64,000 nt of DNA from the NCBI GenBank assembly GCA_017417045.1, contig JAFPZZ010000002.1, positions 124,001 through 188,000 of the forward strand, written 5' to 3'. The position numbers and the translations under genes were made by a program. The notes beneath the pieces are model-generated. The model worked only from the letters and a program-made list of their open reading frames with translations, ran no database searches and had not been told where the DNA came from. The stretch's first letter is position 1. Every line of letters begins with the position of its first letter. Below are positions 36,203 to 40,723 of the stretch, piece by piece. The stretch is from Bacillota bacterium (GTDB lineage: Bacteria > Bacillota > Clostridia > Peptostreptococcales > Anaerovoracaceae).

Positions 36203-36868
36203 TCATAAGCTCTTGCCGCAGCCCTGAGCGAAGAGCTCAGAGAGCGCCAGATCCAGCGCGCCTTCCAGCTCCTCTACCGTTCCGTCGTTGACGAATATCC
36301 TCTCCGCCCTCTCCTTTTTGTATTCCTCGGGAAGCTGGCGGGCCATCCTTGCCTCGACGTCCTCGTCGCTTATCGACGGGTCTCTGTCCTTGACGCGGCG
36401 TCGCCTGATCTCTTCATCCGCGGTCACGAGCCACACGCTGTCTACGTATCTCTCCCATCCGGCTTCGTACAGAAGCGGGATCTCGGCGAAGACGAGCGAG
36501 GGGGCATTCGTGCGATTCCCCTCCTTTTCCCTGAAATCCCTCATCCCCTGCAGCACCTCGCCGTGCATCATGGAGTTGAGCTTTTCAGTGGACACGGGGT
36601 CCGCGAATGCGGCCCTTGCGAGCCTCTTTCTGTTGAGCCTTCCGTCCTTTGTGATAACGCTCTCTCCGAACTGTGCCGCGAGCTCCTTAAGCAGGGGCGA
36701 GCCCTTTCTGGTCATACGCCTGGTATATGCGTCGCAGTCGAATACCCTGAAGCCCTTCTTTCTTAGCAGGGCCGACAGAGTGCTCTTTCCGGAGCCTATG
36801 CCTCCCGTTATGCCTATCAGGAGGGGTTTGACGTAGGACGCAGCTTCCCTGGAACTATTTGAGCTCAT
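36203..36868 (-). CDS. coaE: Dephospho-CoA kinase
   Basis: About 221 residues. The P-loop is LLIGITGGIGSGKSTLSALL; DCDAYTRRMT and later the lid Arg-rich EEIRRRRVKDRDP segment are typical of CoaE, which phosphorylates dephospho-CoA in the last step of CoA synthesis. The start overlaps the polA stop by 14 bp and follows GGAGGG with long spacing, so translation is probably coupled to polA. The preceding pathway enzyme, CoaD, is also in the window. Confidence 0.95.
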   Translation of the reverse strand: MSSNSSREAASYVKPLLIGITGGIGSGKSTLSALLRKKGFRVFDCDAYTRRMTRKGSPLLKELAAQFGESVITKDGRLNRKRLARAAFADPVSTEKLNSMMHGEVLQGMRDFREKEGNRTNAPSLVFAEIPLLYEAGWERYVDSVWLVTADEEIRRRRVKDRDPSISDEDVEARMARQLPEEYKKERAERIFVNDGTVEELEGALDLALSELFAQGCGKSL

Positions 36869-39590
36869 ACCAGTTGTTTCCCTCCTCAAGCGATACTTCG
36901 AGCTTGACCGCAAGCTGAGCCGCGTCTTCCATGCATTCCACGAGCATGTCCCTCACCCTGTCCGCCTCGGACCTGAGGGCGTGTATTATGAGCTCGTCGT
37001 GTATCGTGAGCATCAGATGAGAATCCTCGCACTCGCTCTCGAGCCTTTCGTGTACCTTTATCATCGCGAGCTTGATTATATCGGCGGCCGTGCCCTGTAT
37101 GGGCGTATTCATCGCGAGGCGCTCGCCGAGCTGCCTCTGCATGTACATGCTGCTGTTGATCTCGGGTATCCTGCGCAGCCTTCCGAAGAGAGTGCGTATA
37201 TAGCCGTTTCTCTTGCAGCTGTCTATGCAGCCGTTCATGAAGGTCTTGACGCTGGAGAACCTCGTGAAATAATCCGCAATGTATTTCTCGGCCTGCTTTC
37301 TCGTGATCGTCAGCTCGGTCGCTAGCCCGAAGCCGCTCATGCCGTATATAACTCCGAAGTTGACGGCCTTGGCGTTCGAGCGCATCTGTGGCGAAACTTC
37401 ATCGAATGGAACGCCGAATACCTTCGAGGCGGTCTCACGGTGTATGTCGAGGCCGCTTCTGAAGCATTCTATAAGGGTCTCGTCGCCCGACATGTGGGCT
37501 AATACCCTCAGTTCTATCTGTGAATAGTCCGCGCCTATGAGCACGTAGTCGCCGCTGTCAGCGGTGAAAGCCCTTCTTAGCTGCCTTCCGAGCTCCGTCC
37601 TCACGGGTATGTTCTGAAGGTTGGGATCCGTGCAGCTCAGCCTTCCGGTGGAAGTGACGGTCTGCTGGAAATGCGCGTGCACCTTTCCGTCCTCTGCGAT
37701 AAGAGGAAGCAGTCCCTCGACGTAGGTCGAATTGAGCTTGCTCAGGGTCCTGTATTCTAGGACCTTCTCCACTATTAGGTAGTCCGGCGCGAGTTTTTCG
37801 AGCACTTCCGCGTTCGTGGAATAGCCGCTCTTGGTCTTCTTGGCCCAGGGCAGCGCAAGCTTTTCAAAAAGTATAGTGCCAAGCTGCTTTGGCGAGTTGA
37901 TGTTGAAGCGCTCGCCCGCGAGCTCGTATATCTCGGATTCCAGCTCCGCTATGCCCTTTTTCAGCTCCTTGCCGAAGCTCTCCAGCTCTGCGCTGTCGAG
38001 TTTTATGCCGAGGGCCTCCATAGAGGCGAGCACCTTGCACAGCGGAAGCTCTATCTCATAGAGCACGTAAGAAAGGTCCAGCTGCTCTATGGTGTCCTCC
38101 TGTATGGCTCTGAGTTCTCTTACGTAGAACAGCCTGTCCTTATCGCTAGGAGCCGTCTTGAAATGCTCGAGAATGAGCTGCGAGGTCTCTGGAGCCCTGC
38201 TGCCAGGAGCTATCACGTACTGGGCAAGGGCGCAGTCGAATGCAGTCACAAGCCCGCTGATATCCGTTCCCGTTCCAATGAGGCAGTAGTAAAGCTTGCC
38301 AAGATCCGATCCCGCGAGCCTGATCTTTCTGCCGGAAAGGGCCTCGCGAAGAACGGAGGCGTTCACCTCTGCTCCAAGGCGAAGTTCGACTATCTCCTCC
38401 CCGCATATGAACCTGAAGGCTTCGATCACGGGCGCCTTTAGATGGTCGGCGCTGCCGTCGAACTCGCAGTACAGATCGCCCGAGGCTATGGCCTTTTCCA
38501 GCAGCACCAGGGCTGAGCCCCTGTCATCGGCTGTCCTGAACGAGGCGAGAGCTTTGTCCGAGCCTTGCTCATACGCTCCTGGGGCACTGCTTGAACCCTG
38601 CGCCGCAGTCTCAGCGGTATCCTCCTCGCTGGCCTCTGCGCGGCCGTTTGCCTGTTTTGAACCCTCCTCAGGCGCTGCGCCGAAGAGCGAGAGCTGCTGC
38701 TCCTGCCTTTCCTTTTCCTTGAGTATCTTCGCAAGGTGGGTCCTGAACTCGAGGCGGCTGTAAAGGTCCGTGAGCTCGTCCAGGTCCCGGGGCTTCAGCC
38801 TCGTGTCCTCCAGCGAGAAATCGAGAGGCACGCTCGTGACTATCGTGGCGAGCCTTTTTGAGAAGAGCGCCATCTGCGCGTTGTCTTCTATCTTGGCGCG
38901 CAGCTTCGCGTTTTCTATCTCGCCTGTATGAGAGAGCAGGTTCTCAACGCTCCCGAACTGAAGTATGAGCTTCTGGGCCGTCTTGTCCCCTACTCCCGGC
39001 ACGCCCGGGATATTGTCCGAGCTGTCTCCCTTGAGGGCCTTGAAGTCGATGAACTGAGACCTGGAGAAGCCGTACTCCTCCTGCATCGCCTCTTCGTCGT
39101 AGAGTTTGAACTCGCTGATGCCTTTCTTGGTGATGATGACGGAGGTCATGTCAGAGGCGAGCTGAAGCGCGTCCTTGTCCCCTGTGACTATATTGCAGCG
39201 CAGGCCCTCGGATTCGGCGAGCTTTGCGACGGTGCCCATTATGTCGTCGGCCTCGAAACCGTCTATCTCGTAGGTCCTTATGCCGTTCGCGTGGAGCACG
39301 TCCTTGAGCACGGGCATCTCCATCGCGAGCTCGTCGGGCATGCCCTTCCTGCCGGCCTTGTAGCCCTCATACTCAAGATGCCTGAAGGTCGGAGCCTTGC
39401 GGTCGAACGCGACGAGCATGTGAGTGGGCTTTAAGTCTGCCTGTATCTTCTGCAGCATGCTCAGAAAGCCGTATATGCCCTGAGTGTAGAATCCGTCAGA
39501 GGTTATCATCGGCCTTTGGATGGCGAAGTATGCCCTGTTCACAAGGCTGTTTCCGTCGATTATGACTATGTTGTCTTTTTTATCGTACAT
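36855..39590 (-). CDS. polA: DNA polymerase I
   Basis: 911 residues. The 5' nuclease domain (1-290) has IIDGNSLVNRAYFA, FEADDIMGT and GDKDALQL. The middle exonuclease-like domain (about 330-500) lacks the DxE metal site: the expected position reads LYCEFDGSAD, so proofreading is probably absent, as in other Firmicute PolA. The polymerase domain has ADYSQIELRVLAHMSGD, KAVNFGVIYGMSGFGLA and LTIHDELI. A long Ala/Glu-rich spacer (about 295-345) separates the first two domains. The structured RNA at 39604-39780 ends only 14 bases before the ATG. Confidence 0.97.
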   Translation of the reverse strand: MYDKKDNIVIIDGNSLVNRAYFAIQRPMITSDGFYTQGIYGFLSMLQKIQADLKPTHMLVAFDRKAPTFRHLEYEGYKAGRKGMPDELAMEMPVLKDVLHANGIRTYEIDGFEADDIMGTVAKLAESEGLRCNIVTGDKDALQLASDMTSVIITKKGISEFKLYDEEAMQEEYGFSRSQFIDFKALKGDSSDNIPGVPGVGDKTAQKLILQFGSVENLLSHTGEIENAKLRAKIEDNAQMALFSKRLATIVTSVPLDFSLEDTRLKPRDLDELTDLYSRLEFRTHLAKILKEKERQEQQLSLFGAAPEEGSKQANGRAEASEEDTAETAAQGSSSAPGAYEQGSDKALASFRTADDRGSALVLLEKAIASGDLYCEFDGSADHLKAPVIEAFRFICGEEIVELRLGAEVNASVLREALSGRKIRLAGSDLGKLYYCLIGTGTDISGLVTAFDCALAQYVIAPGSRAPETSQLILEHFKTAPSDKDRLFYVRELRAIQEDTIEQLDLSYVLYEIELPLCKVLASMEALGIKLDSAELESFGKELKKGIAELESEIYELAGERFNINSPKQLGTILFEKLALPWAKKTKSGYSTNAEVLEKLAPDYLIVEKVLEYRTLSKLNSTYVEGLLPLIAEDGKVHAHFQQTVTSTGRLSCTDPNLQNIPVRTELGRQLRRAFTADSGDYVLIGADYSQIELRVLAHMSGDETLIECFRSGLDIHRETASKVFGVPFDEVSPQMRSNAKAVNFGVIYGMSGFGLATELTITRKQAEKYIADYFTRFSSVKTFMNGCIDSCKRNGYIRTLFGRLRRIPEINSSMYMQRQLGERLAMNTPIQGTAADIIKLAMIKVHERLESECEDSHLMLTIHDELIIHALRSEADRVRDMLVECMEDAAQLAVKLEVSLEEGNNWYELK

Positions 39591-39603
39591 GCTTTTACCC
39601 TAC

Positions 39604-39780
39604 AAAAAAACATCCCAAAGTGCCGTCAGATGATAATTCACACCTATCGTAATAATAGGTGTGATGCCAGCCTGCAGATTCTGTCTTCCACTGATAAGAT
39701 GAGGCCTGACATAAGTCGTGCACGGACGTAGCATCTGCTTAGTGTGATGTAGGTTGAATTATGATCTTAACGCACACCCC
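39604..39780 (-). ncRNA. ssrS: Probable 6S RNA (SsrS-like)
   Basis: A transcript of about 177 nt is bounded by a clear promoter and a run of seven U. Its ends pair in a long closing stem of about 22 bp with two bulges and one mismatch: 5' GGGGUGU with GCACUUU, CGUUA-GAU with AUC-UGACG, and AUAAUUC with GAAUUAU. Inside is an open region, an apical helix closed by GCAGAU/AUCUGC (39738-39733 with 39679-39674), and an 8-10 bp hairpin with ACACCUAU arms on the 3' side of the open region (39640-39662). Closing stem, central bubble, bubble hairpin and apical stem match the 6S RNA layout, which mimics an open promoter to bind sigma-A RNA polymerase. The alternative is a regulatory leader of polA. Confidence 0.6.
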
Positions 39781-39786
39781 AGGATG

Positions 39787-39815
39787 ATTATATTTTAGCA
39801 GAAAGAACGGCTCAA
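39787..39815 (-). promoter_or_regulatory. Promoter of the structured RNA
   Basis: On the - strand: TTGAGC (39810-39815), a 17-bp spacer, and a perfect TATAAT (39787-39792). The start is expected near 39780, at a run of G. Confidence 0.75.
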
Positions 39816-39954
39816 TGATAGTGCGCGCGTATTAGAAAATGCTGATAATTTCCTTCAGCCCTGCGCATATGGATATAGAAAGACCACCTGATCAGGCTGA
39901 GCGCAGCGTTCGCTGGGCTGTGGATAACAAAAGGCCGCGCAGTTACTGGTCAAT
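39816..39954. other. Intergenic stretch, little content
   Basis: Nothing gene-like is visible. It contains CAGCG-TT-CGCTG, and the 13-mer GCAGCGTTCGCTG (39903-39915) also occurs in the non-coding gap at 12273-12285. Confidence 0.4.
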
Positions 39955-39980
39955 AAAAAGACCCCGCGCTGTGCGCGGGG
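39955..39980 (-). terminator. Terminator after yebC
   Basis: CCCCGCGC-ACA-GCGCGGGG, a perfect 8-bp GC stem (39962-39980), followed on the - strand by TCTTTTTAT, 14 bases past the yebC stop. Confidence 0.9.
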
Positions 39981-39994
39981 CCGTTCATGCTGTT

Positions 39995-40723
39995 TTATGC
40001 TTCGTAGAGGTCGATAGAGCAGTTGGTCTCTACTTTCTGTACGTCGTCGTCATCCTCGAGAGCTTCGATCATCTTTCTGAGATTGGTGATCTGCGACGGA
40101 TCTGTCGGAGCGGTCTCCATGGAGGCTACCCTCTCGATGTCGGCATTGTCCGGTTCGAAGCCTGCTGCCTTGAGCGCGTCGTTCACATCGTTGAAGATCG
40201 CGGGATCGCAGTACACGGTGAAGACGTCCTCTTCGGATATCATGTCGTCGGCGCCTGCTTCGAGCATGGCTTCCATGAGCTCATCCTCGTCGATATCCCT
40301 CTCCTTGTCGAAGATAAAGACGCCCTTCTTCTCGAACATATAGGATACACAGCCCGGGGTGCCGAGGTTTCCGCCGAACTTGTCGAACGCGTGCTTAACG
40401 CTGGCGGAGGTCCTGTTCTTGTTGTCTGTGAGGACTTCGACTACGACGGCGACGCCGCCTGCGCCGTATCCCTCGAAGACGCCTTCCTCGTAGCTCTCGC
40501 CCGCGAGCTCTCCGGTGCCCTTCTTGATGGCCCTGGTGATATTGTCGTTAGGCATACCGATGGCCTTGGCCTTGTCGATGGCGGTCCTGAGTCCCGGGTT
40601 GTAATCCGGATCTCCGCCGCTCTTGGCCGCTACGGTCACGAGCCTTGCGTACTTTGTGAATAATGCCGCTCTCTTAGAGTCCTGAGCGGACTTTCTTCCT
40701 GCGATAGTGCCATGCCTACCCAT
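39995..40723 (-). CDS. YebC/PmpR family protein
   Basis: 242 residues, begins MGRHGTIAGRKSAQDSKRAA, with MPNDNITRAIKKGTGEL and the acidic C-terminal half of the family. YebC/PmpR proteins were first described as DNA-binding regulators; recent work ties some to translation of Pro-rich stretches, so the exact role here is open. It stands alone between two terminators. RuvC, which often neighbours yebC, is elsewhere in this window. Confidence 0.94.
   Translation of the reverse strand: MGRHGTIAGRKSAQDSKRAALFTKYARLVTVAAKSGGDPDYNPGLRTAIDKAKAIGMPNDNITRAIKKGTGELAGESYEEGVFEGYGAGGVAVVVEVLTDNKNRTSASVKHAFDKFGGNLGTPGCVSYMFEKKGVFIFDKERDIDEDELMEAMLEAGADDMISEEDVFTVYCDPAIFNDVNDALKAAGFEPDNADIERVASMETAPTDPSQITNLRKMIEALEDDDDVQKVETNCSIDLYEA

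Follow-up and report, generated by a model that had tools for sequence, protein, structure and literature searches.

The 64,000-nucleotide stretch of DNA analyzed here (the window) carries on its minus strand yebC (positions 39995 to 40723), followed by a terminator-like hairpin detected in a sequence scan (39960 to 39982), a 6S RNA gene (39604 to 39785), and polA, which encodes DNA polymerase I (36855 to 39590). 6S RNA is a small RNA that reins in bacterial RNA polymerase. The gene bears a consensus promoter and a T7 tract (39604 to 39610), the presumed end of its transcript, both recognized by sequence only, and polA begins 13 bases downstream of this T-run (not 14, as initially counted). 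The first-pass annotation had proposed a likely 6S RNA on the strength of its architecture. All the parts named there can be seen on the minus strand: paired ends, an open region with a hairpin on its 3' side, an apical arm, and the T7 run.

A search with the Rfam 6S/SsrS model (RF00013), a check suggested at that stage, matched the entire feature (39788 to 39608, minus strand; model positions 1 to 187 of 187) with 49.2 bits against a gathering score of 46.4, a margin of only 2.8 bits, and no other Rfam family matched this stretch. The RNA thus shares with RF00013 a full-length match over the gathering score, the rod, the central bubble, the apical arm, and the length, but it differs in its low score and in lacking, on either side of the stem bounding the bubble, several positions of the model. 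The concern that the gene may escape annotation was wrong in this case, since RF00013 finds it, though narrowly; it proved justified for the orthologue in the nearest species searched (see below). In the organism's own 1.82-Mb assembly (96.5% complete), RF00013 recovered a single 6S gene, the usual number in this RNA family, and no second copy, and hence no different 6S gene elsewhere, was found with either RF00013 or a family model described below (R1; E values up to 10). Three genomes of the same order (G038, G041, and G049) each have two 6S matches over the cutoff, as is the case with the 6S-1 and 6S-2 RNAs of Bacillus subtilis. An RNA on the plus strand of the window locus was also considered and rejected, as its fold is unremarkable (z = -1.1) and has no Rfam match.

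The minus-strand RNA (39788 to 39604) has a minimum free energy of -59.9 kcal/mol compared to -43.2 kcal/mol in shuffled sequences (z = -3.7), and none of 200 shuffles was as stable. Its predicted structure is a rod of about 180 to 200 nucleotides with a closing stem, a large central bubble, and an apical arm, matching the shape of the 6S family. The 5' strand of the closing stem (39764 to 39785) pairs with its 3' strand (39612 to 39631), as supported by the fold and by covariation in helix 1. This is followed by the bubble-bounding stem, whose 5' strand (39756 to 39762) pairs in the fold with positions 39639 to 39633 and shows compensatory changes in the genomes G024 and G002. The 5' strand of the central bubble (39736 to 39755) is open in the fold, contains an ACCUACA motif conserved in the alignment, and is presumed to be the template region for product RNAs (pRNAs). 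The apical arm (39663 to 39735) is supported by both fold and covariation, and the 3' bubble strand forms a hairpin (39640 to 39662) with nine pairs in the fold of the whole RNA.

To evaluate covariation, the Rfam consensus structure was mapped onto an alignment of 26 sequences from the taxonomic family. Standard pairs occupy 77% of the cells under this structure as against 36 to 49% when the partner is slid by one to three columns, and 114 cells are changed on both sides compared to 49 (standard deviation, 6.5) in shuffled alignments; the covariation score of the Rfam-derived pairs was reached by 0 of 500 shuffles. A structure obtained with RNAalifold, itself fitted to the same alignment, gave 93% paired cells and 148 two-sided changes. 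Individual examples come from the nearest species searched (G002), whose yebC is 95% identical: pairing is kept in the bubble-bounding stem (AUAAUUC/GAAUUAU in the window and AUUAUUC/GAAUAAU in that species) and in the 3' hairpin (CCUAU/AUAGG and CCUAA/UUAGG, respectively). Thus, the stems of this RNA show abundant compensatory changes among relatives, where the first-pass annotation would have counted a lack of them against a 6S RNA.

Rfam alone recovered 6S RNA in 27 of 37 family genomes, with the organism's own genome included. A covariance model built from 26 of these sequences, including that of the window (R1), matched 39788 to 39604 in the window and added six genomes, bringing the count to 33 of the 37 searched. 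Because R1 contains the window sequence, a second model was built without any member of its genus (R2); this model scored the window RNA at 109 bits (E = 2 × 10−24) and the RNAs of five other species of the genus at 94 to 148 bits. The nearest species has a plain 6S orthologue (locus L083) with an R1 score of 117 bits and no Rfam match, and it is one of several 6S genes recovered by R1 (L083, L090, L058, and L098 to L101) that fall below the Rfam gathering score. 6S RNA is therefore undercalled by Rfam in this clostridial family. R1 found no 6S RNA in four of the 37 genomes (G007, G011, G012, and G020), of which G007 is rated 100% complete; loss, divergence, or an assembly gap could each account for this, and the three cannot be told apart. 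Relatives recovered through polA were unclassified Clostridia and Bacillota genomes from metagenomes, including those of horse feces and goat cecum.

The weak Rfam margin is the one observation in keeping with a chance rod-shaped fold without function. We give this reading a vanishingly small probability and regard it as ruled out by the z-score of -3.7 and the strong covariation; the recovery of orthologues from 33 of the 37 genomes of the family also speaks against it. Instead, the full-length match above the gathering score, the single copy, the compensatory changes, and the score of 109 bits from the model that leaves out the genus together identify the RNA as 6S.

The promoter noted in the first-pass annotation, TTGAGC-17-TATAAT (39787 to 39815, with TTGAGC at 39815 to 39810 and TATAAT at 39792 to 39787), is present and is the sole promoter-like site detected by a consensus scan of the minus strand within 39400 to 40000. 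However, a pattern scan pointed to a better candidate overlapping it, a probable extended -10 element (TGcTAAAAT; 39800 to 39792) that stands five bases upstream of the TATAAT. Although it is a consensus match only, we favor it because it is aligned with an extended -10 element, TGaTATGAT, at the same place in the nearest species, where the TATAAT is not preserved. A start seven bases past the extended -10 element falls on 39785, exactly where the closing stem begins. Transcription would thus begin near 39785 and yield an RNA of about 182 nucleotides, slightly longer than the 177 or so estimated earlier.

A hairpin at this place, in the 3' bubble strand, has been described for Firmicutes RNAs of the 6S-1 type (PMC8876501). 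In B. subtilis 6S-1 RNA (bsrA), a hairpin of five to seven pairs is already formed in this strand of the free RNA, and its disruption lowers affinity and lengthens the pRNAs (PMC8876501). The window RNA resembles 6S-1 in having this hairpin but differs from it in its length, with 9 to 10 pairs in the fold predicted here versus the 5 to 7 reported (PMC8876501). Folded alone, the window hairpin CACACCUA...UAGGUGUG has 10 pairs (with position 39639 included) and an energy of -12.3 kcal/mol, and those of four relatives have 6 to 9 pairs and energies of -7.6 to -11.7 kcal/mol. In nearly all of the family the apical arm is closed by GGG opposite CCC, beside a hairpin of six or more pairs. In the window and in G002 (L083, 1197 to 1383), this GGG/CCC closure is lost and the 3' bubble hairpin is lengthened. 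One may speculate that the longer hairpin of this lineage alters the release of polymerase.

In terms of gene context, yebC lies upstream of the 6S gene on the same strand in every family genome where it was found with 6S, often within 9 to 210 bases, and two genomes from a different family within the order show the same arrangement. The gene polA directly follows 6S in all six genomes of the genus searched and in one genome each of two other genera (G008 and G024), lies farther downstream in several others, and is not adjacent to 6S in many genera. These data bear on the main alternative raised in the first-pass annotation, that the RNA is a cis-acting leader of polA, considered here as a dedicated leader of a riboswitch-like or attenuator kind. 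The T-run does end 13 bases ahead of the polA ATG, and the strand shows no further promoter-like site between the 6S promoter and polA. However, the RNA is kept in many genera without an adjacent polA, yebC being the steadier neighbor, and Rfam gives 6S alone. Since polA adjoins it only in this genus and two others, rather than the RNA being conserved only or mainly beside polA, the RNA is no leader devoted to polA; as a sole function this is ruled out by the conserved RNAs that lack an adjacent polA, and we consider it most improbable.

A different proposition, which adds to the identification as 6S RNA, is that this RNA also lies inside the polA transcription unit, with polA output tied to the 6S promoter by read-through of the terminator. 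The gap between T-run and polA is short (13 bases in the window and 23 in G002). Given that no promoter-like site is seen past the 6S promoter in the window, transcription of polA probably takes in part or all of the 6S gene, with expression via read-through of the 6S end. Against this, consensus scans miss many real promoters and the direct linkage is confined to the window's genus and two other genera, so that we regard the chances of such a unit as evenly balanced. Upstream, the window has a terminator-like hairpin after yebC and a putative promoter for 6S itself, whereas four further species of the genus have 6S starting 9 to 22 bases past yebC, with only weak promoter-like matches. Across the genomes compared, promoter-like matches in a consensus scan are weaker where 6S lies 9 to 28 bases after yebC (8 versus 24 loci; one-sided P = 0.018, for related sequences and with a cutoff chosen after the data were seen). 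The weaker matches at tight gaps are a hint, and only that, that 6S may be cotranscribed with yebC in these relatives. A more elaborate reading combines both ends into a yebC-6S-polA transcription unit, in which a promoterless 6S RNA would be cut from the yebC transcript in close relatives, the extended -10 element would have been gained in the window species and G002, here behind the yebC terminator, and read-through of the 6S end would be the sole route to polA expression; we entertain this tentatively and consider it rather unlikely as a whole. A literature search on 6S RNA together with yebC found no paper containing both terms in the collection searched, and the ten papers listed for "6S RNA" with "polA" concerned other subjects, as judged by their titles and abstracts.

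Placement directly before a protein gene is familiar from Escherichia coli, where the 6S gene (ssrS) lies directly upstream of ygfA on the same strand. The window locus shares this arrangement of 6S before a same-strand gene, with the difference that the gene is polA and not ygfA/fau. The neighbors also differ from those in B. subtilis and in lactic acid bacteria, whose 6S locus lies near rarA (PMC8414754), as against yebC and polA here. Another comparison is offered by Ms1 RNA of Actinobacteria, outlined in PMC9130861 as a 6S-like rod that binds core polymerase; the window RNA is likewise a 6S-like rod, but Ms1 is actinobacterial and core binding, whereas the window RNA matches RF00013 only.

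We are nearly certain that the locus encodes a bona fide clostridial 6S RNA of the ssrS/bsrA type, presumably with its own promoter and the activities of the family: mimicry of an open promoter, holoenzyme binding, and release through pRNA synthesis. Weighing against this identification are the slim Rfam margin, the missing GGG/CCC closure of the apical arm, and the four family genomes in which R1 found no 6S RNA. By analogy with other members, the RNA would be transcribed from its own promoter and fold into a rod whose open central bubble mimics an open promoter. Like other 6S RNAs it would be expected to accumulate in stationary phase and, as growth slows, to bind the RNA polymerase holoenzyme containing the housekeeping sigma factor; release would come as the polymerase transcribes a short pRNA off the 5' strand of the bubble. 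The present analysis shows the identity of the gene, its conservation, and a predicted fold, whereas binding to polymerase, control by growth phase, and the making of pRNAs are inferred from its belonging to the 6S family.

The 6S RNA before polA is a divergent member of a well-known family, and its identification as such is in itself ordinary. What is gained is a fixed identity for an RNA gene that is barely recognized by the standard search and missed by it in the closest relative, and the family alignment would improve the annotation of 6S RNA in uncultured Clostridia. If the yebC-6S-polA unit were real, it would tie DNA polymerase to a regulator of RNA polymerase.
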